From a virus, in IMG/VR virus record IMGVR_UViG_3300017730_000001, positions 50,387 to 114,386 of that record: a stretch of DNA of 64,000 bases, one strand, 5' to 3'. Numbering within the stretch: position 1 is the stretch's first letter; each line of letters opens with the position of its first letter. This document shows, in pieces, positions 28,431 through 45,534 of this stretch. Made by a program: the position numbers and the translations under genes. The notes beneath the pieces were generated by a model. The model saw only the letters and a program-made list of their open reading frames with translations. It searched no databases and was not told the DNA's origin.

Positions 28431-28826
28431 TTAGTCTTTGTTCTTCTTAAGGAACTTTTGTAATTCAGAAGTTGACCCAACATACAAATGATTGTGTTGT
28501 TGTCCTATCTTCTGTTGTTCTTCGCCCTCTAACTTCTTCAATTTACTCTGTAAATCTATAAGTTTCTCTGCTGTTTCACCTACTGTTTTAATTAACTGAC
28601 CTGCAACTTCGTATGCACGAGGGTGTTCTGTTTCTTTTGATAATTGTAGTATGCCTTCGATTGCATCTTGTCCTCTTTCTACGAGTCCATACAGATTTTC
28701 TCTAGCGTATTTGTAATCTGTTTCCATGTTCTCATGTCGAGAAGGAAGTTTAACTATCTTTGTTTCTTCTTTGATGTCCGATTCTATATTTAAAAGGTCA
28801 TCTAATTTTTCATCTATATCATTCAT
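28431..28826 (-). CDS. 16: terminase small subunit gp16
   Basis: 131 residues with the gp16 helical core ENLYGLVERGQDAIEGILQL, then SKETEHPRAYEVAGQLIKTV and a coiled coil to the C-terminus (LIDLQSKLKKLEGEEQQKIG). It recognises DNA and regulates gp17. It overlaps the 2OG gene upstream by four bases (ATGA). Confidence 0.9.
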   Translation of the reverse strand: MNDIDEKLDDLLNIESDIKEETKIVKLPSRHENMETDYKYARENLYGLVERGQDAIEGILQLSKETEHPRAYEVAGQLIKTVGETAEKLIDLQSKLKKLEGEEQQKIGQQHNHLYVGSTSELQKFLKKNKD

Positions 28827-29323
28827 GTTATTGCCTCGAAATAGTCTATATTCAGTACATGTCTATATTTTTTACTACATGTATTGGTTGTACCTGTGTG
28901 TTGTGTATGTCCATCAAACATCAATATTCTATTCGCAACACTATCAATACATTCTATTTCATCTGATTCTTTTAGCATAGTATATCCATTATTTGTATTT
29001 AAGTATAACAATGCAGTTTTTAAATTTTTTGGTGCAGTCTCAATGTCCACATGAAATTCATTTTTTATAATTGTATCAGTTCTTGGCAACATATTAAGTT
29101 TACATCGCACTAAAGAACAAACATTTAATTTATCTAATAATGGTTCAATCCACTCATATGCATCACTCTGAGGTTGATTGTCAAAGTATAATGCATGTAC
29201 AAATTGTATCTCATCACCATCTCTATTGACTGTATTTAAAAAATATGGAAAAGTTGGATGAGTAAATTTATCTACTAGTTCATTAAAGTAGTTTTGGTCT
29301 AATGCATTATCTATTATTTTCAT
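28823..29323 (-). CDS. 2OG-Fe(II) oxygenase between gp15 and gp16
   Basis: 166 residues. Ligands H91-V-D93 (NEFHVDIETAP), a distal His at 139 or 142 (DGHTQHTGTT) and Arg 154 (YRHVLNIDYF) define the jelly-roll oxygenase. The short length means only the catalytic core. Codons are noticeably AT-richer than in its neighbours, and it interrupts the otherwise canonical 15-16-17 order, both consistent with late acquisition. It is coupled to gp16 by ATGA. Substrate unknown. Confidence 0.8.
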   Translation of the reverse strand: MKIIDNALDQNYFNELVDKFTHPTFPYFLNTVNRDGDEIQFVHALYFDNQPQSDAYEWIEPLLDKLNVCSLVRCKLNMLPRTDTIIKNEFHVDIETAPKNLKTALLYLNTNNGYTMLKESDEIECIDSVANRILMFDGHTQHTGTTNTCSKKYRHVLNIDYFEAIT

Positions 29324-32368: not shown

Positions 32369-33079
32369 CTACTGTATCAACTTACCAAATCTATCTGTTC
32401 TGAACACTAAACCCATGTTTTCTTTATGCCATTCTTCGCCATTCTCTTCAATAAGAGTTTCTCCATCGGGATGTTGAATCTCTATATTAAACGATATACT
32501 ATATCTATCTTTATCTGTCGTGTTTGGTTCAACCATATGCATGGTGCCACTAGGAAATAAAAGTATGTCTCCAGTTTTTGGTTGCCAACCCCAAGATTCT
32601 TCCATTCTAGGTGAAGATAGAGCCATTCCAACATAGTGTTTAGTTGTTTCTATAAACTTAATATCTCCCTCGTCTCCGTCTGCCCTAATATAACATGCAC
32701 CAGAATAAGTACAACCATTATGTAAATGTGGTGCATTATATCCACCTGGATAGTTTATGTTTCCCCATGAGTTATGCATAACACATTGAGCAGTTCCTTT
32801 TTCAAATCCACAATAACCCATAATCTCTTCCGTCACTGTTCTTTTAATTTGTCTCATCAACTTATTGAATATGGGATTGTTATCGATACCATCGTTTGAT
32901 TGCCAACCGAGACCTTTATTAGACCTTCTTCTACCTTCACGGTCTCTAGTTCTCATAGCGTCCATTTCATCCTTCAACATTTGAAAATACTCTGGCGTCA
33001 ATCCTTCCACTTTGTCTTCTGGATTATATAACCATTCTCTAATACAAATTACTGCTGGACTAAATAATTTAATCGCCAT
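32369..33079 (-). CDS. 2OG-Fe(II) oxygenase, TIGR02466-like
   Basis: 236 residues. The family layout is clear: SWGNINYPGGYNAPHLHNGC with H118/H120, a middle YSGACYIRADGDEGDIKF, then TGDILLFPSGTMHMVEPN with H181, and R192 in DRYSISFNIE. This type (putative phage 2OG oxygenase) is frequent in marine T4-like viruses. The first member of the usual HxD pair appears as HLH, which needs checking. It overlaps the upstream 278-residue gene by 11 bases. Confidence 0.88.
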   Translation of the reverse strand: MAIKLFSPAVICIREWLYNPEDKVEGLTPEYFQMLKDEMDAMRTRDREGRRRSNKGLGWQSNDGIDNNPIFNKLMRQIKRTVTEEIMGYCGFEKGTAQCVMHNSWGNINYPGGYNAPHLHNGCTYSGACYIRADGDEGDIKFIETTKHYVGMALSSPRMEESWGWQPKTGDILLFPSGTMHMVEPNTTDKDRYSISFNIEIQHPDGETLIEENGEEWHKENMGLVFRTDRFGKLIQ

Positions 33080-33905
33080 CTATTTCTCCTTTATGAAATG
33101 GACACTCTGGTGGAGGTTCCATTTCTTTGAAATTCTTACCTTTTTGTTTCCAATGTCCTTCACTTCTATATGCACCCATATTGTTGGGTTTCTCTTTTAA
33201 TAGTTTATCGTACTTCTCTCTGTTTACTTGGTCCATGCTAGGAAGTTCTTGTACTCTTTCTTCGGTTCTATCTTTGTGCCATCCAGCAGTGTCTTTTAAC
33301 TGATAAGTCGATACCCATTCTTCTCTTTTAAAAGGTATAACTTGAACTAGGGGAGTTCCTTTTGGTATAACAAACGAATGACTAACTTTAGGATAGAAAA
33401 TAATTTGTGAATTGTCTTGATTGATATTAAAGTCATCTGTATCTATAACACCTTGCCATGTTGCAAAATGATTGTTTTGAAATAAAAAGGGGTCTAAATA
33501 GAAACAAGAATAACCTTTTGGCGTTATTATATTCCAAGCATTTCTCATTTTAAATGCATCTTTAATTGGACCTTCTTCCCCCAAATAACTGAATGAGTGT
33601 GCAAACTGAGCTGCAGGATGAGAAGGAGATGCTTGAGATTGTGAAACCTCTTTGCCAAATTCTTGAGTATATGTTTTGCCGTTATCAAAAACAACTTCCA
33701 TATCTCTATTTGCAAGAATATACCAACCAGATTTTAACCAATCATCCATTGCCGGACAAGCACGAATAGTCTGTATTCTTTGTCCTCTATCGTGTTGAAA
33801 GACTTTCATCTTTTTCCACCAATCAGGACTTAACGATTTAGCAAGAACTGGTTTCCAGTCTCTAAGACTCTCTTCGTTAAATGTAGTGAAATCTATCGTT
33901 GGCAT
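33069..33905 (-). CDS. conserved phage protein, DUF6065-like (unsure)
   Basis: 278 residues, soluble, rich in Trp. It has the segments IQTIRACPAMDDWLKSGWYI, then LANRDMEVVFDNG, then IIFYPKVSHSFVIPKGTPLV followed by QVIPFKREEW. The last part looks like a beta-sandwich edge, as in cupin-related folds, and the whole recalls DUF6065 proteins. It sits between two 2OG oxygenases and overlaps both, so the three may act on one substrate. Not an oxygenase itself: no HxD triad is seen. Confidence 0.65.
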   Translation of the reverse strand: MPTIDFTTFNEESLRDWKPVLAKSLSPDWWKKMKVFQHDRGQRIQTIRACPAMDDWLKSGWYILANRDMEVVFDNGKTYTQEFGKEVSQSQASPSHPAAQFAHSFSYLGEEGPIKDAFKMRNAWNIITPKGYSCFYLDPFLFQNNHFATWQGVIDTDDFNINQDNSQIIFYPKVSHSFVIPKGTPLVQVIPFKREEWVSTYQLKDTAGWHKDRTEERVQELPSMDQVNREKYDKLLKEKPNNMGAYRSEGHWKQKGKNFKEMEPPPECPFHKGEIDGD

Positions 33906-34611
33906 TATATAATTCTTCCTTATCTACTAGTTCTATCTCGTCACCCCTAAGTACGATAGAACATCTATCTGCATATCGAGCTCGTTCTGTTGGTGCATCT
34001 GCACCATGTGGTATTCTTCCATCAAACATTAACAATCTGTTTGGTTTAAACTCTATACTTCCTATAGAATGTTTTTCTATGTGTTCTTCTCTTCCATCTA
34101 AACCGGCTTGATAAACACCTTTATCATAAAATCTTAAATCTCCACCCCATGCAGGATTCCAGAATTTATTGTAGTAATATAGAAATGATAGGTTCCATTC
34201 ATCTTGTTCATCACAATCACAATGAGTTGTACCATGTTGACCATGAGTTTGAGAATTGGTTCCCATATACTGAAATCTTTTCCATTTAAAACCAAAGTCT
34301 GTACATATTCTTCTGTTCAACCATCTAGCGTGTTCTACACTTTCGGTTGTTTCTCCATATTCCATTTCTGGATTACCATAATCATCTGTTTTAAAGAATG
34401 ATGCACCCCAAAGTTGATGATGAGGTAAACCTGTGGGATGTTGTGCGTTTACTTGATTTTGTTTAGCCCACCTAGGACCTTCAGAAGTTTTACGATGAAT
34501 CCATCGATGTATAGAAGTCTCTAAGTAATCATCGATTACATAGACTTTATTTCCTAAAGGAAAGTCTTTAATAGTAAAAGGTTTATCTACCTTGACTATT
34601 TCTAGGGACAT
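33877..34611 (-). CDS. 2OG-Fe(II) oxygenase
   Basis: 244 residues. H130-C-D132 (GTTHCDCDEQ), a central sheet LSFLYYYNKFWNPAWGGDLR, a distal His 202 (GRIPHGADAP) and Arg 212 or 216 (ARYADRCSIVL) give the full iron and 2OG site. MFDGRIPHG is the typical turn of prolyl-hydroxylase-like phage enzymes. It overlaps the downstream gene by 29 bases. Substrate unknown; sugar or protein modification is possible given the neighbouring glycosyltransferase. Confidence 0.85.
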   Translation of the reverse strand: MSLEIVKVDKPFTIKDFPLGNKVYVIDDYLETSIHRWIHRKTSEGPRWAKQNQVNAQHPTGLPHHQLWGASFFKTDDYGNPEMEYGETTESVEHARWLNRRICTDFGFKWKRFQYMGTNSQTHGQHGTTHCDCDEQDEWNLSFLYYYNKFWNPAWGGDLRFYDKGVYQAGLDGREEHIEKHSIGSIEFKPNRLLMFDGRIPHGADAPTERARYADRCSIVLRGDEIELVDKEELYNANDRFHYI

Positions 34612-35180: not shown

Positions 35181-36728
35181 TTAGTTTTGATGTTTGTTTT
35201 TAAATCTTTCATACATATTTAGGTGTTCTATTTCAGAAGTATCCATACCTTCAATCCAAGGACCGCCTCTAGTATAATGTATAGCACAAGCACGCCACTT
35301 TTCTTCCTGTGTATCATGCCCCTCAGTTATAACATACCATTCTGGTATTTCTGATATCTTATCTGTCCATTCAAATTGATGTAGATATTTACCACTTTCA
35401 GTATTGATAACTTCTGGTGTAAGTTTTTTACAGTCTTCATGACCATTATTAAATATCATTAATGATGACCAAAGTTTTTTAGGATAAGATACATTCTTTT
35501 CACCGTTAAATTTTGTTTCAGCATAAGTATCAAAATCATACTGAACACATGCAACTGCATCATCTAAATCTAAGTAGTAGAACATTGGTAAGATACTTTC
35601 ATTGAATAGTATATCATCATCAATAAAAATACTAAATCCTTCATAGTTTTCTAAGTAAGGAATTAAGAATCTACTATATGTGAACTCTGTTGATTGAGCT
35701 GCATACTCTCTATTATACTCTGGAATCTTTGATATGTCAAGAAACTTTATCTCAGGAGTCCAATCTCCTAATATATCATGTACATCACCACGACCTGCTC
35801 CAAATAATATACTACTCTTAAGACATTTAGCACTTAGTTCTGCAATGTCTTTGTGTCTACTATCATATCCGACATAGATTGTCAAGGGTTTGCCAGCAGA
35901 AAGTTTATTTACTTTTTTATTGAAGTCTGTCACATCTCCTCTGAAGTTCATCTTCAATAAGTCACTATGTATTTCTAAATATCCACGAGTGAATGAAAAC
36001 GACATTGAGTAGTGGGCTGCATTTCTTTCTACAAGTTGCGACTTCATTTCCTCAATCATTTCATCTATGGGTGTTTCTGGAAGAGGTATAGCATCGTGGT
36101 CATCCCATATCCATAAATCTAAGTCTGGGTCATCCATAGTTTCGAAAACACCTGAACGAACAGAACCTGGATGTATAGATAACTGATACATTCGTTCATC
36201 TCTGGAGTTCATACCTGCTGTAGCTACAGTACCTTGAATTGCATTCCATAGACCTTCTTTTCTGATACTATCGACTAACCAATGTGCCTTTGCACCATGA
36301 TAATATACAGCATTAAGACTACCATCTTGTTGTTCGCTTAACTTAGTACCTGTAAATTCTTCTATCTTTTGATATTCATCATTTGAATTTTTAAAATCCA
36401 TACCTGCAATTCCTGGTTTTGGATTTTCGGGTGGTGCAGTGTATCCTTTAGAAAGAAAGTAATGATATGCCCATGAATGAGATTGTAGTTTGTTCCAACC
36501 AAGAAACTTTTGTTCCTTGATTAACTTAGTCATATCACCCCATTTGACCTGTTTTAATTTTCCTGTTTTGTTCGCTGTCACCCATTTTAAAGATTTATAT
36601 GCTTCTGTTTCTTTATAATCTTTTGATACATCAAAAGAACCCAACTGAACATGTGTGTTCTTATCTGTTGGATCCCAATCTTTGAGAAGTTCCTTTGTGT
36701 GCTCGAGTGAGTCTGATTTTACGCTCAT
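35181..36728 (-). CDS. two-domain protein: ParB/Srx-like N-part and glycosyltransferase
   Basis: 515 residues. The N-terminal half has YYHGAKAHWLVDSIRKEGLW, then YQLSIHPGSVRSGVFE, reminiscent of ParB/sulfiredoxin-like folds seen in phage proteins. The C-terminal half is a glycosyltransferase of GT-A type: YVGYDSRHKDIAELSAKCLK at the nucleotide-sugar site, SIFIDDDILF as the DxD metal motif, and a late acceptor region KKLWSSLMIFNNGHEDCKKL. It likely transfers a sugar to a phage or host target. Leader with AAGGAA and a late-type box at 36756-36763. Confidence 0.75.
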   Translation of the reverse strand: MSVKSDSLEHTKELLKDWDPTDKNTHVQLGSFDVSKDYKETEAYKSLKWVTANKTGKLKQVKWGDMTKLIKEQKFLGWNKLQSHSWAYHYFLSKGYTAPPENPKPGIAGMDFKNSNDEYQKIEEFTGTKLSEQQDGSLNAVYYHGAKAHWLVDSIRKEGLWNAIQGTVATAGMNSRDERMYQLSIHPGSVRSGVFETMDDPDLDLWIWDDHDAIPLPETPIDEMIEEMKSQLVERNAAHYSMSFSFTRGYLEIHSDLLKMNFRGDVTDFNKKVNKLSAGKPLTIYVGYDSRHKDIAELSAKCLKSSILFGAGRGDVHDILGDWTPEIKFLDISKIPEYNREYAAQSTEFTYSRFLIPYLENYEGFSIFIDDDILFNESILPMFYYLDLDDAVACVQYDFDTYAETKFNGEKNVSYPKKLWSSLMIFNNGHEDCKKLTPEVINTESGKYLHQFEWTDKISEIPEWYVITEGHDTQEEKWRACAIHYTRGGPWIEGMDTSEIEHLNMYERFKNKHQN

Positions 36729-36765: not shown

Positions 36766-38232
36766 TTAGGAATTAACAGGTGTTCCTGGCCATGTTTGTG
36801 ACAATGAACCATCCCAACGGATAACAGGTGTTTGACCTTGTCTAGCATATGTACTAGGTGACCTATGTTGATAAGTCGTTGGTGTCTGACCTTGTCTAGC
36901 ATATGTAGAAGGACTTCTATGTTGATAAGTCGTTGGTGTTTGACCTTGTCTAGCATATGTAGAAGGACTCTGATGTTGATATGTAAGAGGTGTCTGACTA
37001 TTTGCAGGATTTCTGTAAGTAAACGGACTTCTATGGTCATATGTTAAAGGAGACCTGTGGTCATATGTCAACGGACTTCTATGGTCATATGTAAATGGAG
37101 TCTGATTATTTCTTATAAACGGATTCTGAGCATTTACAGGATTCTGATAGTTCGCTGTTGTTTGTCTGTTTCTAATATTAGGTTCTTGTTGAGCTCTAAT
37201 ATTAGGTTCTTGTTGTGACCTTATGTTTGGTTCTTGAGCATTTCTAATAAACGGATTTTGTGCATTAGCAATATACGGAGATTGTGCATTTCTAATATTA
37301 GGTTCTTGCGTTACCGTTTGACCTGAACGAATATTAGGTTCTTGTTTTGCCCTAATATTAGGTTGTTGAGCATTACTAGGTGATTGAGCATCTCTAATAT
37401 TAGGTTCTTGTTGATTCTTAATAGTAGGTTGTTGAGCACTCTGCTGTTTGTTTCTAATATTAGGTTCTTGTTGTGACCTTATGTTTGGTTCTTGTGCTGA
37501 CTGTTGCGCTGAACGAATATTAGGTTCTTGTTGTGACCTTATGTTTGGTTCTTGTGCATTTGAAGTGGTTTGTGCGTTTGCAATATAAGGTGTTTGTCTG
37601 TTTCTAATATTAGGTTCTTGTGCATTTGCAGTGTTTTGTCTGTTTGCAATATAAGGTGTTTGTGCATTTCTGATATTAGGTTCTTGAGCTGCACTAGCCC
37701 CTTGTGCATTAGCAATGTAAGGAGTCTGAAAGTTTCTTATATTTGGTTCTTGAGCAGACTGTTGAGAATCTCTTATATTAGGTTCTTGTTTGTTCTTAAT
37801 TGTAGGTTGCTGAGCATTACTAGGTGACTGAGCATCTCTAATATTAGGTTCTTGTTGGTTTCTAATATTAGGTTGTTGTATGCTTCTAATATTGGGTTGC
37901 TGATTGTTCCTTATATTAGGTTCTTGATTATTCGCAATGTATGGACTCTGGAAAGTATAAGGTTGTTGACCAGTATAAGGAGTCTGACCATTCTTAATAG
38001 TAGGTTGTTGATTATTTCTAATATTAGGTTGTTGATTATTCGCAATATAAGGACTCTGGAAAGTATAAGGAGTCTGACCAGTATAAGGAGTATGACCAGA
38101 TGCAATATATGGCGACTGATATGTAAATGGTTGTTGACCAGTATAAGGTTGCTGGCCATTAGCAATAGACGGAGTTTGCACATTAGAAGTGCTTGGCGAT
38201 TGAGCGATGCCAATTAGAGGTTGCTGTGGCAT
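36766..38232 (-). CDS. octapeptide-repeat virion protein (488 residues)
   Basis: Almost the whole protein is a tandem array of eight-residue units ending in proline: first the IANxQxP and YTGQxP types, then mostly NIRNxQEP and NIRSQQEP, then TYDHRSP and TYxRQGQTP types, with a short tail WDGSLSQTWPGTPVNS. No cysteine, no globular domain and no signal peptide are visible. The composition is Gln/Asn/Pro/Tyr/Arg-rich. Location among fibre genes suggests a virion filament; that is inference. Shine-Dalgarno GGGAG. The DNA is a 24-base minisatellite. Confidence 0.8.
   Translation of the reverse strand: MPQQPLIGIAQSPSTSNVQTPSIANGQQPYTGQQPFTYQSPYIASGHTPYTGQTPYTFQSPYIANNQQPNIRNNQQPTIKNGQTPYTGQQPYTFQSPYIANNQEPNIRNNQQPNIRSIQQPNIRNQQEPNIRDAQSPSNAQQPTIKNKQEPNIRDSQQSAQEPNIRNFQTPYIANAQGASAAQEPNIRNAQTPYIANRQNTANAQEPNIRNRQTPYIANAQTTSNAQEPNIRSQQEPNIRSAQQSAQEPNIRSQQEPNIRNKQQSAQQPTIKNQQEPNIRDAQSPSNAQQPNIRAKQEPNIRSGQTVTQEPNIRNAQSPYIANAQNPFIRNAQEPNIRSQQEPNIRAQQEPNIRNRQTTANYQNPVNAQNPFIRNNQTPFTYDHRSPLTYDHRSPLTYDHRSPFTYRNPANSQTPLTYQHQSPSTYARQGQTPTTYQHRSPSTYARQGQTPTTYQHRSPSTYARQGQTPVIRWDGSLSQTWPGTPVNS
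36790..38180. repeat. 24-bp coding minisatellite, array 1
   Basis: Degenerate 24-base units (some of 18 bases) encoding xxxxxQxP octapeptides, such as NIRNAQEP and TYDHRSPL. Units are similar to those at 39050-40240, 48100-49020 and 49680-50480, so the arrays can recombine with each other. Confidence 0.85.
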
Positions 38233-38272
38233 TAGATTTTACTCCCTAATCTTAATTTAATTATCATCTTCA

Positions 38273-39055
38273 TTATTTTTGCCCAATTGGTAGACCTTGG
38301 TTGTTAAAGTTATGTGCTAACATTCCATTAACAAAGAAGTTCGAGTTATCTTCAATATCAGTTAAGTTATAAACTTCCATTTCTGAATGTTCTTCTACTG
38401 ATACTATCTCTAGTCCCATTTCATCTTGTCTATCAAACATTATTCCATCTAACATACTGAATACACTATCTCCAACTGTAAGTTCATGTGTTTCTATATC
38501 TTCCATCCAACTATGTTCTTTGACTGATTTCTCAACATCAAATGCACCCCATTCGCCATTTGGTAGCATCAATGGGTGAGTATCAGTCATCTGTAGAATT
38601 CTACCATCTGAGAATGTTATATCCCATATAGAACTGATTGGTTGAGGATTAATTTGTTGTATTCTCTTAGGTTCAAGTAATTTAGTACTTTCGTTCCAAG
38701 ACATGACCCATTGACCAATAACACATGACTCGATAGGTGCATGTGAACCATCGCCTAACCATATCATTGAACCTGGAGCGAAGCAACCTCCGCCTCCTCC
38801 TCCACCACCAAAGGTAAACGGATTTCTGTATCCATAAGATGCAGGAGACTGATTGTTTGCAATCGAAGGCGTTCTATGTTGATAAGTGAAAGGATTTCTT
38901 CCACTAAATGGGTTTCTAGCAGAGTTTGGTTGTCTTGCCTGATAAGTGAACGGTTGTCTTGCACTAAATGGTTGTCTAGCACTATTCGGTTGTCTTGCCT
39001 GATATGTACTAGGTGACCTGTGATTATATGAACTAGGCGACCTATGGTCGTATGT
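38273..39055 (-). CDS. C-terminal part of a repeat protein with a Hint domain, other frame
   Basis: This frame continues the octapeptide repeats of the gene upstream after a +1 shift (FTYDHRSP..., ARQPNSAR...). It then has eight glycines (38786-38809) and a Hint domain from Cys at 38783-38785 to His-Asn at 38309-38314, about 159 residues. Hint motifs: CFAPGSMIWLGDG (block A), DTHPLMLPNGEW (block B), VYNLTDIEDNSNFFVNGMLA followed by HN (blocks F/G), tail FNNQGLPIGQK. The open frame extends to 39310, but that upstream part is an out-of-frame reading of repeats. The nucleophile Cys after poly-Gly suggests thioester formation and cleavage. Confidence 0.75.
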   Translation of the reverse strand, partial: TYDHRSPSSYNHRSPSTYQARQPNSARQPFSARQPFTYQARQPNSARNPFSGRNPFTYQHRTPSIANNQSPASYGYRNPFTFGGGGGGGGCFAPGSMIWLGDGSHAPIESCVIGQWVMSWNESTKLLEPKRIQQINPQPISSIWDITFSDGRILQMTDTHPLMLPNGEWGAFDVEKSVKEHSWMEDIETHELTVGDSVFSMLDGIMFDRQDEMGLEIVSVEEHSEMEVYNLTDIEDNSNFFVNGMLAHNFNNQGLPIGQK

Positions 39056-40376
39056 AAAATGGTTGTCTTGCACTAAATGGGTTTCTAGCAGCGTTAGGTT
39101 GTCTTGCCTGATATGTACTAGGTGACCTATGTTGATATGTACTAGGCGACCTATGGTCATATGTATATGGTGACCTGTGATTATATGTAGTAGGTGACCT
39201 ATGGTTGTAAGTAAACGGATTACGATATGTAAACGGTGACCTATGGTCATATGTAAATGGTGACCTATGTTGATAAGTAAACGGACTTCTATAAGGTGAC
39301 CTATGGTCATATGTACCAGGTTGTCTATTGTTGTAAGTACTAGGATTCTGGTAAATACTTGGCGACTGATGCTGATAACTACTAGGTTGTCTGTTCTGAT
39401 AGGTACTCGGATTCTGGTAAATACTTGGCGACTGATGCTGATAAGTACTAGGTTGTCTGTTCTGATAGGTACTTGGATTCTGATAGATACTCGGTGACTG
39501 ATGTTGATAAGTCAACGGACTTCTATGCTGATAAGTGAACGGACTTCTATAAGGCGACCTATGGTCATATGTCAACGGACTTCTATGGTCATATGTAAAC
39601 GGACTTCTATAAGGTGACCTATGGTCATATGTTAAAGGAGACCTGTGATTATAAGTAAACGGATTACGATATGTAAACGGTGACCTATGGTCATATGTAA
39701 ATGGTGACCTATGTTGATAGATGAACGGACTTCTATAAGGAGACCTATGGTCATATGTATTAGGTTGTCTATTACTATATGTAGAAGGTGACCTATGGTC
39801 ATATGTAAATGGTGACCTATGTTGATATGTCAACGGACTTCTATGTTGATATGTCAACGGACTTCTATGATTATATGTAGAAGGATCCTGATATGTTCTA
39901 GGGTCTCTATATGTAGAAGGTGACCTATGTTGATATGTGCCAGGTTGTCTAGCATTTCTAATATTAGGTTCTTGTTGTGACCTAATATTTGGTTCTTGTT
40001 GATTTCTAATATTAGGTTCTTGTGCATTTACTGGATTTTGATAAATCGCAGGTTGTCTTCTATCTCTAATATTAGGTTCTTGTGCATTAGCAATATAAGG
40101 ATAAGGATTCTGTTTGTTTCTTATATTAGGTTCTTGTGCATTAGCAATATAAGGATAAGGATTCTGTCTGTTTCTTATATTGGGTTCTTGTGCGTTTGCG
40201 ATATAAGGATAAGGTTGTTGAACACTCTGTTGTCCAGAAGCATTATTCCAACCGGTAGGCGTCTTTACATAAATCTGGTCTGCAGCTTTCCATGTGCCTG
40301 AGTCTGTTTTTACCCATGCACCTCGGGTTGCATTCCAACCGGTTGGTGTTTTTACCTTTTGTGAGCCTGTCGCCAT
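39042..40376 (-). CDS. octapeptide-repeat protein, N-terminal part of a probable 700-residue fusion
   Basis: 444 residues as read. Residues 1-50 form a small module with repeated VKTPTGWN / VKTDSGTW strands (MATGSQKVKTPTGWNATRGA). Then come octapeptides: QEPNIRN type first, then long runs of TYDHRSPF, TYQHRSPL and YRSPFTYQ. The frame ends within four codons of a TTTT run at 39056-39059, where TTT would keep it open into the Hint part. Read through, the protein would be about 700 residues. Shine-Dalgarno AAGGAC, late-type box at 40403-40410. Confidence 0.8.
   Translation of the reverse strand: MATGSQKVKTPTGWNATRGAWVKTDSGTWKAADQIYVKTPTGWNNASGQQSVQQPYPYIANAQEPNIRNRQNPYPYIANAQEPNIRNKQNPYPYIANAQEPNIRDRRQPAIYQNPVNAQEPNIRNQQEPNIRSQQEPNIRNARQPGTYQHRSPSTYRDPRTYQDPSTYNHRSPLTYQHRSPLTYQHRSPFTYDHRSPSTYSNRQPNTYDHRSPYRSPFIYQHRSPFTYDHRSPFTYRNPFTYNHRSPLTYDHRSPYRSPFTYDHRSPLTYDHRSPYRSPFTYQHRSPLTYQHQSPSIYQNPSTYQNRQPSTYQHQSPSIYQNPSTYQNRQPSSYQHQSPSIYQNPSTYNNRQPGTYDHRSPYRSPFTYQHRSPFTYDHRSPFTYRNPFTYNHRSPTTYNHRSPYTYDHRSPSTYQHRSPSTYQARQPNAARNPFSARQPFYIRP
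39050..40240. repeat. 24-bp coding minisatellite, array 2
   Basis: 24-base units with a higher-order 66-base unit (22 residues, SPSIYQNPSTYQNRQPSTYQ followed by HQ) repeated three times around 39340-39510. Several copies differ by only one or two bases. Confidence 0.85.
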
Positions 40377-40402: not shown

Positions 40403-40410
40403 TATTTATT
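40403..40410 (-). promoter_or_regulatory. late-type box AATAAATA
   Basis: A weak variant of the late box, 26 bases before the repeat-Hint gene ATG, overlapping the end of the 884-residue gene. Confidence 0.35.
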
Positions 40411-43063
40411 AAGAGTAAAGAACCCATAAATCGCCAACTGCGCCATCACTTCCGCCTGGTGCTGATGTTGACTGATATATGTTTCTCGCTGTGCCACCAC
40501 TGTTTGTTGCATTTGTAATTGTCAATGCGCCAGTGTTTACTGCACTTGGGGTAATCGTTAAATCACCTGTTGATGCACCTGTAAATGTTCCTGTTCCGAA
40601 TGTGACTGCATCAGCACTTTCATCCCAACCAATAAATACATTGGCATCACTTCCTCTTTCGATAACAAAACCTGAATCGCCTGAAGCAGAACCACTATTA
40701 CCTGTCCCTAACTCTATAAGTTGGTCTTCGATAGTTGTATTTGTTGCCGAATTGGTTACTGTTGAACCATTAACTGTTAAGTCGCCTGTGAGAACTAAGT
40801 TTCCAAATTGAACATTACTTGATGTTCCAACTGCCTGTCCAATAGAGATTGTTGCGGTTGCACCTTCTCCAGAACCACTTACTGAGACACCAGTTCCTTG
40901 ACTTACACCTGCAATATAATTACCTGTTGTGTCTGTTCCAAGTGCGACTGAGTTAGCAGCGACTGTAGTAGAGATACTAACATCACCTAAATTGGTCATT
41001 GTAGCAGAACCTGTCACATCGCCTGTCAAGGATATTGTTGGGTCACTAACATTCAAATCAATTGTGCCATCTGCATCTTGATATGTTGCAGTAATACCAC
41101 TTTCAGTATTACTTGAGAACATCGCCCCAGCGATATCTTGTACATTCTCTGTTGATAATTGAGTGTTAGTTGTTGTGACTGAACCACCCAATGCAACTGA
41201 TTGACCATCAATTGTTATCGTACTATTAGCAAGTTTTGCGTTTGTAATTGAACCTGCAAGTTTGGATTGATTGATTGACCCTGCCAACATGGCATTAGTA
41301 ATGTCGTTATCACCAATAACAAAGTCAAGATTACCATTTGTATCATCGTATGATACTGAGATACCTGTTTCGGTACCATCTAACATACCACCAACAATGT
41401 CTTCGACTTGTTCTGTTGTTAATTGTGTATTTGTTGTAGTTATATTACCACCAAGTGATACTGCTGTACCATCAATAGTGATTGAAGAATTAGCAAGTTT
41501 TGCGTTTGTAATACCACCTGCAAGTTTGCCTTCATTGATAGACCCTGCCAACATGGCATTTGTGACACCAAGTGCTTTTACTTGAACTGCATCTGAATCT
41601 AATTCGATTGAACTATCGTCAACCCCTACTGCAAGAACACCACTTGAGAATGAAAGACCATTACCAGCGACTGAAGAAGACAATGCGATATCATTTGCGT
41701 TTGCAGTAATACCGTCTCCCCCAATAACATTAACTGTCACATCACCAGAAGTTCCCCCACCAGTCATACCAGTTCCAGCAACTACTGAAGAAATATCACC
41801 AGCATCGTTTGTGAAACTAATTACACCAGTTGAACTGTTGTATGATAAGTCACCACCAGCAGATATTAAACCTCTAACATGTGATGTTGATACTGCAAGG
41901 TCGATTGCACCATCGTTTGCATCGTCATAAGATGCAGTAAGACCTGTATGTGTACCATTGGTTGCAATTTGAGCACCAACTGTATCTTGTATATTCTCGT
42001 AAGGTACTCTAATCTCTAAACTTCCATTTGCATCGTCATATGTCATAGCGACATTGACACCAGAAGTTAGTAGAGCATCTACTCTATCGTCTACTCTTTC
42101 GTTTGTGAAGTATAGGTTACTTGAACCTTCTGTAATCTCGTCTGTATTATCTTTACCTGCAACTGAAGAGTCTACATATGCCTTGATTGATTGTTGCGTT
42201 GCAAGATGAGTATTACTATTAGAAGCCATATTGTCTTGGTCTAAGACAGCAGTACCCGAAACTGTTCCATTTAGAATTGGAGTCGTTATTGTTTTGTTTG
42301 TTAAGTTTTGTGCAGTAGTTAAATCTGCTGTTATCGAAGTATCGATTGTCACATCGTTTGCATTTGCGATAAGACCATTACCTGCAACAACATTTACAGT
42401 GACATCGCCACTTGTTCCGCCACCTGTTAGACCAGTTCCTGAGACTACACTTGTTATGTCTCCAGTTGGAACTGTTGCAACTTGAGCGTCAACATATGCT
42501 TTAACTGATTGCTGACTTGGAAGTTTAGTAGCACTATTACTAGACATATCATCTTCATCAACTAATGCGTTTGTAATTCTTGCATCTGCTCTTGTATTTG
42601 TGAAGTATAAATTACTTGAACCTTCTGTAATCTCGTCTGTATTGTCTTTTGTTAGAATACTTGCATCTACATATGCTTTAATTGATTGTTGAGTAGCGGC
42701 ATGAGTTGCTGAGTTTGAAGACATGTCATCTTCATCTTTGAAGTTGACTGCAATATCGTCTGCATTTACAGTAATACCTGTACCAGCACCAATGTTTAGT
42801 GTTGCATCACCTGAACTTGCAGTACCAGTTAAACCAGCACCAGCGTTCACACCTGTGATGTCACCTTGTTGTCCGTTAATTGTTAGTGTGCCAGCAGCGT
42901 CATCATATGTTAATGAGATACCTGTTCCAGCAGTTAGTAGAGAATCAACTCTATCGTCAACTGCCTCGTTGACAGCGGCGCCAGTAATTAAACCAGCAGA
43001 TGTTATGACCTCAGTAGTTCCTACTGTTAGACCATTTTTGATTATGAAATTTTTACTTGTCAT
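40409..43063 (-). CDS. tail-fibre-like virion protein, 884 residues
   Basis: A beta-rich, Ser/Thr/Asn/Asp-rich protein made of repeated modules: DDMSSNSATHAATQQSIKAY followed by VDASI; EITEGSSNLYFTNTRADARI; TSVVSGTGLTGGGTSGDVTV. These occur in fibres of marine T4-like phages and in many phage host-contact proteins. The end VGDLWVLYS is typical too. It starts ITSKNFIIKNGLTVGTTEVI, like the 72-residue gene upstream, and overlaps that gene by one base. Distal fibre or baseplate decoration is inferred from module type and position. Confidence 0.8.
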   Translation of the reverse strand: MTSKNFIIKNGLTVGTTEVITSAGLITGAAVNEAVDDRVDSLLTAGTGISLTYDDAAGTLTINGQQGDITGVNAGAGLTGTASSGDATLNIGAGTGITVNADDIAVNFKDEDDMSSNSATHAATQQSIKAYVDASILTKDNTDEITEGSSNLYFTNTRADARITNALVDEDDMSSNSATKLPSQQSVKAYVDAQVATVPTGDITSVVSGTGLTGGGTSGDVTVNVVAGNGLIANANDVTIDTSITADLTTAQNLTNKTITTPILNGTVSGTAVLDQDNMASNSNTHLATQQSIKAYVDSSVAGKDNTDEITEGSSNLYFTNERVDDRVDALLTSGVNVAMTYDDANGSLEIRVPYENIQDTVGAQIATNGTHTGLTASYDDANDGAIDLAVSTSHVRGLISAGGDLSYNSSTGVISFTNDAGDISSVVAGTGMTGGGTSGDVTVNVIGGDGITANANDIALSSSVAGNGLSFSSGVLAVGVDDSSIELDSDAVQVKALGVTNAMLAGSINEGKLAGGITNAKLANSSITIDGTAVSLGGNITTTNTQLTTEQVEDIVGGMLDGTETGISVSYDDTNGNLDFVIGDNDITNAMLAGSINQSKLAGSITNAKLANSTITIDGQSVALGGSVTTTNTQLSTENVQDIAGAMFSSNTESGITATYQDADGTIDLNVSDPTISLTGDVTGSATMTNLGDVSISTTVAANSVALGTDTTGNYIAGVSQGTGVSVSGSGEGATATISIGQAVGTSSNVQFGNLVLTGDLTVNGSTVTNSATNTTIEDQLIELGTGNSGSASGDSGFVIERGSDANVFIGWDESADAVTFGTGTFTGASTGDLTITPSAVNTGALTITNATNSGGTARNIYQSTSAPGGSDGAVGDLWVLYS

Positions 43064-44709: not shown

Positions 44710-45534
44710 CTATGATTGTCTTATTTGGAAAGTATTAACCGTTGTGTTGGTGTTAGCAGGTGTACATAAGAGTCTCATGTTTCCTGAATTAACATCAGCT
44801 GTCAACGAAAATAATGAAGCAGTACTGAATATATCGCCATATTGAACGAAATATGCATTGGATCCATCATTGATTAATAATACTTCGGCTGAATGTGTTC
44901 CTGCACTCGCATGAGTGGCAGTAATAACATATTTAATACCTTTATTAGATACTGCATTACTTGATAATACTTGATTAGCAGTAGTTGCACTAAAGACACT
45001 ATTTGTATAGTATCCTTGTACTAAATTAGCAGCGGTAACTGCTACTACTTCTAATGTATCACCTGCAATTGCATTTTCTTCCAGTGTGATTGTTGTGGTG
45101 TTGGTTGCAGTATAATCTGCACCAGCATCAACTAACTTAACACCATTAAGGAATACTTGTTCTGAACCTACAGTGTAAGACAATGCATTACTGTCATCAT
45201 CGTTACCTGTAAATACAGTTTGGTTACCCGAAACGGTGTATTTGTAAATTGAAACACCTGAACCACCTAAAGTTGCAAATGAAACTGTTCCTGAACCATT
45301 GGTTTGAAGAACTTGTCCATTTGAACCATCACTGGTTGGAAATGTTATAGCGTCATTAATCTGTAGAGATGTTGGGTTAGACCCAATCTCTACAACAGCA
45401 GCAGAACCATCATTCTTCTCGGTATAAAATCTACCGTGATAAGTATTGACAGCCAATTCCCCTAGTGATAAATCACCAGTACCAGGAACTGCGTTCTGAG
45501 TCGAACTTCTTTTAAACTGTATAACTGTTGCCAT
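44710..45534 (-). CDS. fibre-like virion protein with the shared C-terminal domain, 274 residues
   Basis: The start MATVIQFKRSSTQNAVPGTG, then DLSLGELAVNTYHGRFYTEK, is a common N-terminus of phage fibre and tail proteins. A middle module (VSGNQTVFTGNDDDSNALSY, then VFLNGVKLVDAGADYTATNT) is also found in the 809-residue gene. The last 85 residues are the shared domain (NKGIKYVITATHASAGTHSA, then EVLLINDGSNAYFVQYGDIF). Shine-Dalgarno AGGAG. Confidence 0.78.
   Translation of the reverse strand: MATVIQFKRSSTQNAVPGTGDLSLGELAVNTYHGRFYTEKNDGSAAVVEIGSNPTSLQINDAITFPTSDGSNGQVLQTNGSGTVSFATLGGSGVSIYKYTVSGNQTVFTGNDDDSNALSYTVGSEQVFLNGVKLVDAGADYTATNTTTITLEENAIAGDTLEVVAVTAANLVQGYYTNSVFSATTANQVLSSNAVSNKGIKYVITATHASAGTHSAEVLLINDGSNAYFVQYGDIFSTASLFSLTADVNSGNMRLLCTPANTNTTVNTFQIRQS

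Follow-up and report, generated by a model that had tools for sequence, protein, structure and literature searches.

A bacterial-intein-like Hint domain is an optional part of the glycine tail of a phage fibre-region protein and probably removes itself

Reports of Hint domains from phages usually concern inteins within terminases, helicases or polymerases. A-type bacterial intein-like (BIL) domains were reportedly described by Amitai et al. in 2003. Their definition is reviewed in PMC7765530. They have a Hint fold, Cys1, a block-B His and a final His-Asn with no nucleophile at +1, as in the C. thermocellum BIL (PDB 2lwy), and they sit within variable parts of non-conserved proteins. Splicing at times without a +1 nucleophile has been reported for A-type BILs (PMC5874633), and likewise in Aranko 2013, so far as PMC7664689 cites it. 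The BIL2 domain of BUBL1 (PDB 6y75, 6tmm) is reported to attach a ubiquitin-like domain that ends in Gly to lysines through an isopeptide bond, without ATP (PMC8616854). Our search of the open-access literature for Hint domains in phage tail-fibre or tail-tip proteins found only intein papers. We analysed a Hint domain at the extreme C-terminus of an octapeptide-repeat protein, REP1, encoded in a 64,000-nucleotide stretch (the window) of the IMG/VR virus record IMGVR_UViG_3300017730_000001. Like the A-type BILs, it has the Hint fold, both catalytic ends and no +1 nucleophile and occupies a variable stretch of a non-conserved protein; it differs from them in lying inside a Gly-run of a phage fibre-like protein, in having Hint-bearing and Hint-less orthologues side by side, and in that its cleavage is predicted.

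On the minus strand, REP1 starts at 40376 with MATGSQKVKTPTGWNATRGAWVK and runs through octapeptide repeats, NPFTF, GGGGGGGG, a Hint that begins CFAPGSMIWLGDG and closes NGMLAHN, and FNNQGLPIGQK to a stop at 38273. Its parts are as follows.

40221..40376 (-), N-terminal domain of 52 aa, MATGSQKVKTPTGWNATRGAWVK...NNASGQ, common to Hint-bearing and Hint-less orthologues
39042..40376 (-), first open frame of 444 codons, N-terminal domain plus octapeptide repeats, cut off early by the frame break
39056..39059 (-), T-run frame break, four T against a shorter run in relatives (alignment)
38810..39055 (-), last octapeptide-repeat stretch, in the frame of ORF 38273-39310, closing with the aromatic NPFTF segment
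38786..38809 (-), eight-glycine run, residues -8 to -1 ahead of the Hint
38309..38785 (-), Hint domain, C1-N159, 159 residues, A-type bacterial-intein-like
38783-38785, 38576-38578, 38312-38314 and 38309-38311 (-), key codons for Cys1, block-B His70, His158 and Asn159
38276..38308 (-), C-terminal tail FNNQGLPIGQK, 11 residues, the would-be C-extein, with Phe at +1

Translation of 38273-38809 agreed with the original prediction, which had described octapeptide repeats leading to eight glycines, then Cys with a 159-residue Hint, His-Asn and Phe. That prediction had also treated 38273-40376 as one protein; in this contig a single extra T in the run 39056-39059 splits it into two overlapping ORFs, 39042-40376 and 38273-39310. 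Eight contigs with a 100% identical Hint and the other complete Hint-bearing relatives have one uninterrupted ORF (the frame is intact in L001-L007, L016 and other complete relatives), indicating that the break is an assembly or sequencing error or a mutation in this copy. Programmed frameshifting was rejected, since complete relatives are unbroken and the break comes down to a T run that differs in length by one base. A second broken orthologue, L396:5727-6581, has an in-frame stop codon within the repeats.

REP1 belongs to the tail-fibre region of an uncultured marine phage that is T4-like and related to Kyanoviridae. It had been placed in a virion region, and this holds for the neighbours, which have structural or tail-fibre matches; from these neighbours we infer a virion role for REP1 itself, whose own PHROG matches were weak and to families of unknown function only. 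The surrounding genes that bear on this setting are listed here.

44710..45534 (-), conserved neighbour with a segment common to annotated Pelagibacter-phage tail fibres, marking the module as a tail-fibre region
40409..43063 (-), upstream 884-aa protein with structural/tail-fibre PHROG matches (phrog_697, E 2.9e-18; phrog_24210 tail fiber, E 2.4e-9)
36766..38232 (-), REP2, a second octapeptide-repeat protein without a Hint, with a conserved C-terminus (ARQGxTPVIRWDG...WPGTPxxS) and a variable N-terminus
35181..36728 (-), glycosyltransferase family 8-like protein (PF01501, E 2.5e-5; phrog_28018), found after REP1-REP2 in the relatives examined

Two endonuclease V-like genes (phrog_274; 28823-29323 and 33877-34611) also lie in the structural region of the window. 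By capsid protein, the nearest cultured phages are Methylophilales phage Melnitz and Pelagibacter phages HTVC008M and Mosig (63-66%), and the Hint profile had no match in these three. The Hint family and the REP1 N-terminal domain were absent from 50,697 phage records, except for remote helicase-type inteins of Vibrio phages and one Ruminococcus phage.

The REP1 repeats are rich in Pro, Ser, Arg, Tyr, Gln and Asn, with a residue identity at lag 8 of 0.41 against 0.09 in shuffles and a TRF period of 24 nt. All 66 proline gaps are even (44 of 8, 15 of 6, 4 of 4 and 3 of 2 residues), a pattern suggestive of a beta-type or some other two-residue alternation. In REP2 the proline gaps are even in nearly every case, and the repeats of both proteins are nearly free of Lys and Cys. 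REP1 has a conserved N-terminus and a variable C-terminus and REP2 the opposite, as if 36766-40376 encoded one composite fibre. AlphaFold2 on the full-length protein left the repeats unresolved (pLDDT about 30) and gave the N-terminal domain, a probable anchor, short beta-strands at low confidence. Near these repeat genes lie the family 8-like glycosyltransferase (35181-36728) and a 2OG-Fe(II) oxygenase (32369-33079), and at L084:9009-10200 two 2OG oxygenases directly follow a Pro/Tyr/Asn-repeat gene with a poly-Gly Hint; modification of the repeats by such enzymes is possible. The same genome encodes a CsgG curli-type secretion channel (G000:C1:49394-50056, E 2.9e-56) about 330 bases outside the window start, as likewise reported for pelagimyophages and Melnitz (PMC9004378). 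Gln/Asn/Tyr-rich repeat proteins might be candidate substrates of this channel, although there seem to be CsgG phages that lack such repeats.

A profile search and an alignment of relatives had been proposed as checks of the Hint assignment. In Pfam, the C-terminal part of REP1 matched PF14890 Intein_splicing (E 3.4e-8, 33.9 bits, slightly below the curated 35.8) and PF01079 Hint (E 3.5e-5). AlphaFold2, run on an alignment of 23 Hints, predicted the Hint fold with confidence (pLDDT 85.7, pTM 0.83), and Foldseek searches of the PDB with this model retrieved the NpuDnaB intein 4o1r (E 2.2e-10) and BUBL1 BIL2 6y75 (E 5e-10), with TMt of 0.84 for both 6y75 and 2lwy. A profile of the 23 Hints ranked T. 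thermophila BUBL1 BIL2 highest (E 7e-21), then the C. thermocellum BIL (2e-15), with inteins at about 1e-11 and hedgehog at 6e-5 both behind the BILs.

To the 22 complete fibre Hints, which are 26-100% identical to that of the window, only nine positions are common without exception: C1, F2, I18, G61, H70, P71, W79, H158 and N159, which include the residues for an N-S acyl shift and for Asn cyclisation. The Cys and HN ends named in the original prediction are thus invariant, as is His70, and TxxHP is found in the 23-row alignment. All 22 have Gly at -1, and their +1 residue is F, Y, M, G or K, never Cys, Ser or Thr; the 4-29 residues that follow the Asn vary in sequence. Having a Hint fold, C1, a block-B His, an HN end and no +1 nucleophile, and being nearer to BILs than to inteins or hedgehog, the fibre Hint fits an A-type BIL by its sequence features. 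Of the two types that had been suggested, the bacterial-intein-like one is therefore borne out, with BILs as best profile matches and all residues for a Gly-Cys thioester conserved, whereas the hedgehog-type option does not agree with the HN end or with the far weaker match of hedgehog 1at0. A Hog domain has no Asn-cyclising HN and carries a sterol-recognition region after the Hint, where the fibre Hints end in HN and 4-29 residues. B-type BILs were set aside as they lack the intein-type C-terminal HN motif. A splicing intein would have Cys, Ser or Thr at +1 and a substantial C-extein in a conserved host protein, not a short variable tail. DnaB-type inteins (NpuDnaB 4o1r, SspDnaB 1mi8) have the fold and catalytic blocks A, B and F/G in common with the REP1 Hint, which lacks their +1 nucleophile, conserved enzyme host site, second extein domain and endonuclease. 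The earlier argument that a missing +1 nucleophile precludes splicing stands for canonical splicing but is too strict for A-type BILs, given the exceptions reported for them. BUBL1 BIL2, the best profile match, also works on a Gly-ending upstream domain, but REP1 lacks ubiquitin-like domains and any second partner domain following the Hint, and it has no known conjugation target.

A search with the N-terminal domain alone, together with three loci already known, gave 57 distinct complete REP1 orthologues. Twenty-two of these close with Gly-Cys-Hint-HN-tail, and about as many are Hint-less and stop at a like aromatic, Gly-rich segment, with ends such as FTYYFTFGGGNPPNVMEP (L393), YYYFSGGGGFFEP and YYFTGGGGNFCEP, where the Hint-bearing counterpart reads ...RNPFTFGGGGGGGG and then C1. 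The rest mostly have longer non-repetitive C-terminal sequences. All forms examined have a common gene order of structural genes, an 884-aa-type protein, REP1, REP2, glycosyltransferase, a 183-aa protein and endonuclease V, and the REP1 loci compared showed no acceptor gene or residue specific to the Hint. Three forms of an orthologous fibre with a like N-terminus and gene order, namely Hint-tailed, ending at the Gly tail or ending otherwise, are new here. A related trio from one small part of the neighbour-gene tree ends in YRFPYFFQSFGGGGTPNFQEP and a stop (L417), in YRFPYFYQNFQPTPNVSEF and a stop (L396, whose frame carries the earlier stop codon), and in YRFPYFYTNFQGGGGG, the Hint, FNSQETKTFEP and a stop (L415). 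By this sequence comparison, the Hint is lodged within the Gly tail. On a tree built from the neighbouring glycosyltransferase, at least five changes of the Hint label are needed, three or more of them forced by well-supported (starred) branches, and among 62 Hints the fibre Hints form one group (SH-aLRT 94, below the starred level, with several long branches). The repeated label changes and this grouping together suggest a single old Hint lineage, with several losses or exchanges at the one site. The idea that different Hints were recruited to it independently and more than once, raised by 26% Hint against 68-80% N-terminal identity, was left unsupported by the same unstarred grouping.

The best explanation, and in our judgement a fairly probable one on the residues and orthologues compared, is that the REP1 Hint cuts itself off and leaves a fibre with a poly-Gly end. 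Because Hint-less relatives stop at the same glycine tail, the Hint is most likely a removable end piece. Under self-removal, the conserved N-terminal domain would anchor hundreds of octapeptide-repeat residues that end in an aromatic, Gly-rich tail, into which the A-type BIL would be placed a few residues ahead of the stop. After translation the Hint would fold, and Cys1 with block-B His70 would capture the last glycine's carbonyl as a thioester, as the invariant residues suggest; water or a small thiol would then resolve this thioester by hydrolysis or thiolysis at the Gly-Cys bond. His158-Asn159 would probably cut as well, after Asn159, through Asn cyclisation. With the Hint departed, the fibre end would resemble what Hint-less orthologues get from a stop codon. 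We infer the cleavage and its timing, as well as the incorporation of REP1 into the virion, from these comparisons. As a best guess, the Hint may cap and solubilise the sticky aromatic/Gly terminus until folding or assembly; the solubility part is a guess because AlphaFold2 leaves the repeats unresolved. Against self-removal, conserved catalytic residues are expected for a useful domain and a tolerated passenger alike, and a shed piece of about 170 residues with no known job would be costly to keep.

The original prediction suggested ligation, with the released poly-Gly end joined to an amine on another virion protein. Worked out further, the Gly thioester would be attacked by a lysine or by the N-terminal amine of REP1, REP2 or some other protein, which would join fibres head-to-tail or to another protein. 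The closest solved relative of the REP1 Hint, BUBL1 BIL2, is a reported conjugator (PMC8616854); lysines hardly occur outside the N-terminal domain (5 in its 52 aa, against 0-4 in the 211-553 aa of repeats of Hint-bearing forms), so head-to-tail joining would be possible; and the C-terminus of REP1 and the N-terminus of the next gene product, REP2, are both variable. We nevertheless consider ligation unlikely, since Hint-less orthologues carry the same N-terminal lysines and already reach the Gly-rich tail without a thioester, and no gene accompanies the Hint in a gene order alike in all forms examined; Hint-less ends at the same tail and the lack of a Hint-specific acceptor favour plain removal. 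The specific form of this idea, that the poly-Gly thioester links the fibre to lysine residues in a different fibre subunit or in a virion protein as in Tetrahymena BUBL1, giving ATP-free covalent polymerisation of an appendage, is by analogy conceivable but quite unlikely; if true, it would be a phage counterpart of sortase-built pili. Splicing without a nucleophile could also yield a Hint-less-like product: Asn cyclisation would free the Phe amine of the short tail, which would attack the Gly thioester and become joined to the poly-Gly. Both reaction centres are invariant, such splicing is at times reported for A-type BILs (PMC5874633; Aranko 2013 as cited in PMC7664689), and a spliced L415 tail would read ...FQGGGGGFNSQETKTFEP, like ...FGGGGTPNFQEP of Hint-less L417. 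Yet the tails of 4-29 residues are unconserved and none of the 22 has a +1 nucleophile, though one mutation could supply it, which suggests that joining is not selected and makes this route improbable. Finally, the Hint might be retained uncleaved as a folded end cap or as a trimerisation or folding module of the fibre. Some REP1 relatives (L418, L427-L429, L444) hold non-Hint C-terminal regions at that position, indicating that it can hold a lasting end region, but for a purely structural role there is no need for C1, His70, His158 and Asn159 to stay unchanged down to 26% identity, while most other positions vary, and we regard retention as very unlikely.

The poly-Gly junction was rejected as a signature specific to REP1, as bacterial proteins and the tail-tip J and hub proteins of phages have it too. 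A DNA pattern scan of viral contigs (IMG/VR), which favours Gly-rich junctions by construction, yielded at least 61 J-like tail-tip proteins whose Hint lies close to the N-terminus, flanked by Gly-runs on both sides, and at least 19 C-terminal HN-ending Hints. In a viral sample drawn without a Gly condition, 8 of 16 C-terminal and 5 of 35 internal Hints had three or more Gly in the last eight residues. The Lambda-J-like proteins, such as L087:2064-5807 (FNIII-A_GpJ match, E 9e-36) and at least some 60 further loci (L052-L171), carry a Hint of about 130 residues after some 10-20 N-terminal residues, reading MTQAKYVAGAGGGGGG, then C...RVHN, then AGIGQRIVGAGGGG; self-removal there would set the N-terminus of the tail tip. 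Hub-like proteins in siphophage-type tail modules (L314:3205-4287, L347:2184-3221, L057:2141-3271) have a C-terminal Hint ending in HN followed by K, and L314 is baseplate-hub-like (PF09931, E 6e-4, under its cut-off). The REP1 Hint is like the J and hub Hints in poly-Gly directly ahead of Cys1, HN end and virion-tail context; it differs in its Phe at +1, where theirs is Ala or Lys/Arg, and the J-like Hint lies near the N-terminus with poly-Gly on both sides. Other viral proteins consist of two or more tandem Hints (L297, 925 aa; L291, 916 aa; L307, L309 and relatives), most of them ending in HN with K, R or another non-nucleophile at +1. Some bacterial proteins, from Elusimicrobia (L213, L249, L284), Leptolyngbya (L228) and Gracilibacteria (L177), have a hydrophobic N-terminal segment followed by poly-Gly, a Cys-Hint and HN, several with a second Gly-run and more sequence thereafter. 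A second, different Hint-like ending of phage proteins is a C-terminal domain of about 140 residues (L068, L077, L092, L125, L143, L157) that starts CFIAGTMI... after poly-Gly and has SGTH without an HN end; several copies follow VKVGGAWK-type repeats.

In REP1, the Hint is a standing, optional part of a fibre-type protein, with its catalytic set intact over deep divergence and natural Hint-less controls at the same locus, and the triplets of Hint-bearing and Hint-less orthologues make the cleavage question directly testable. If the Hint ligates, it would offer a new route to virus appendages that are covalently built, and would itself be a small natural Gly-thioester tool. Most likely, the removable end piece is a phage use of a known domain type, and if the Hint cuts, self-processing would join S74-type chaperones among the ways in which phages mature their tail proteins.
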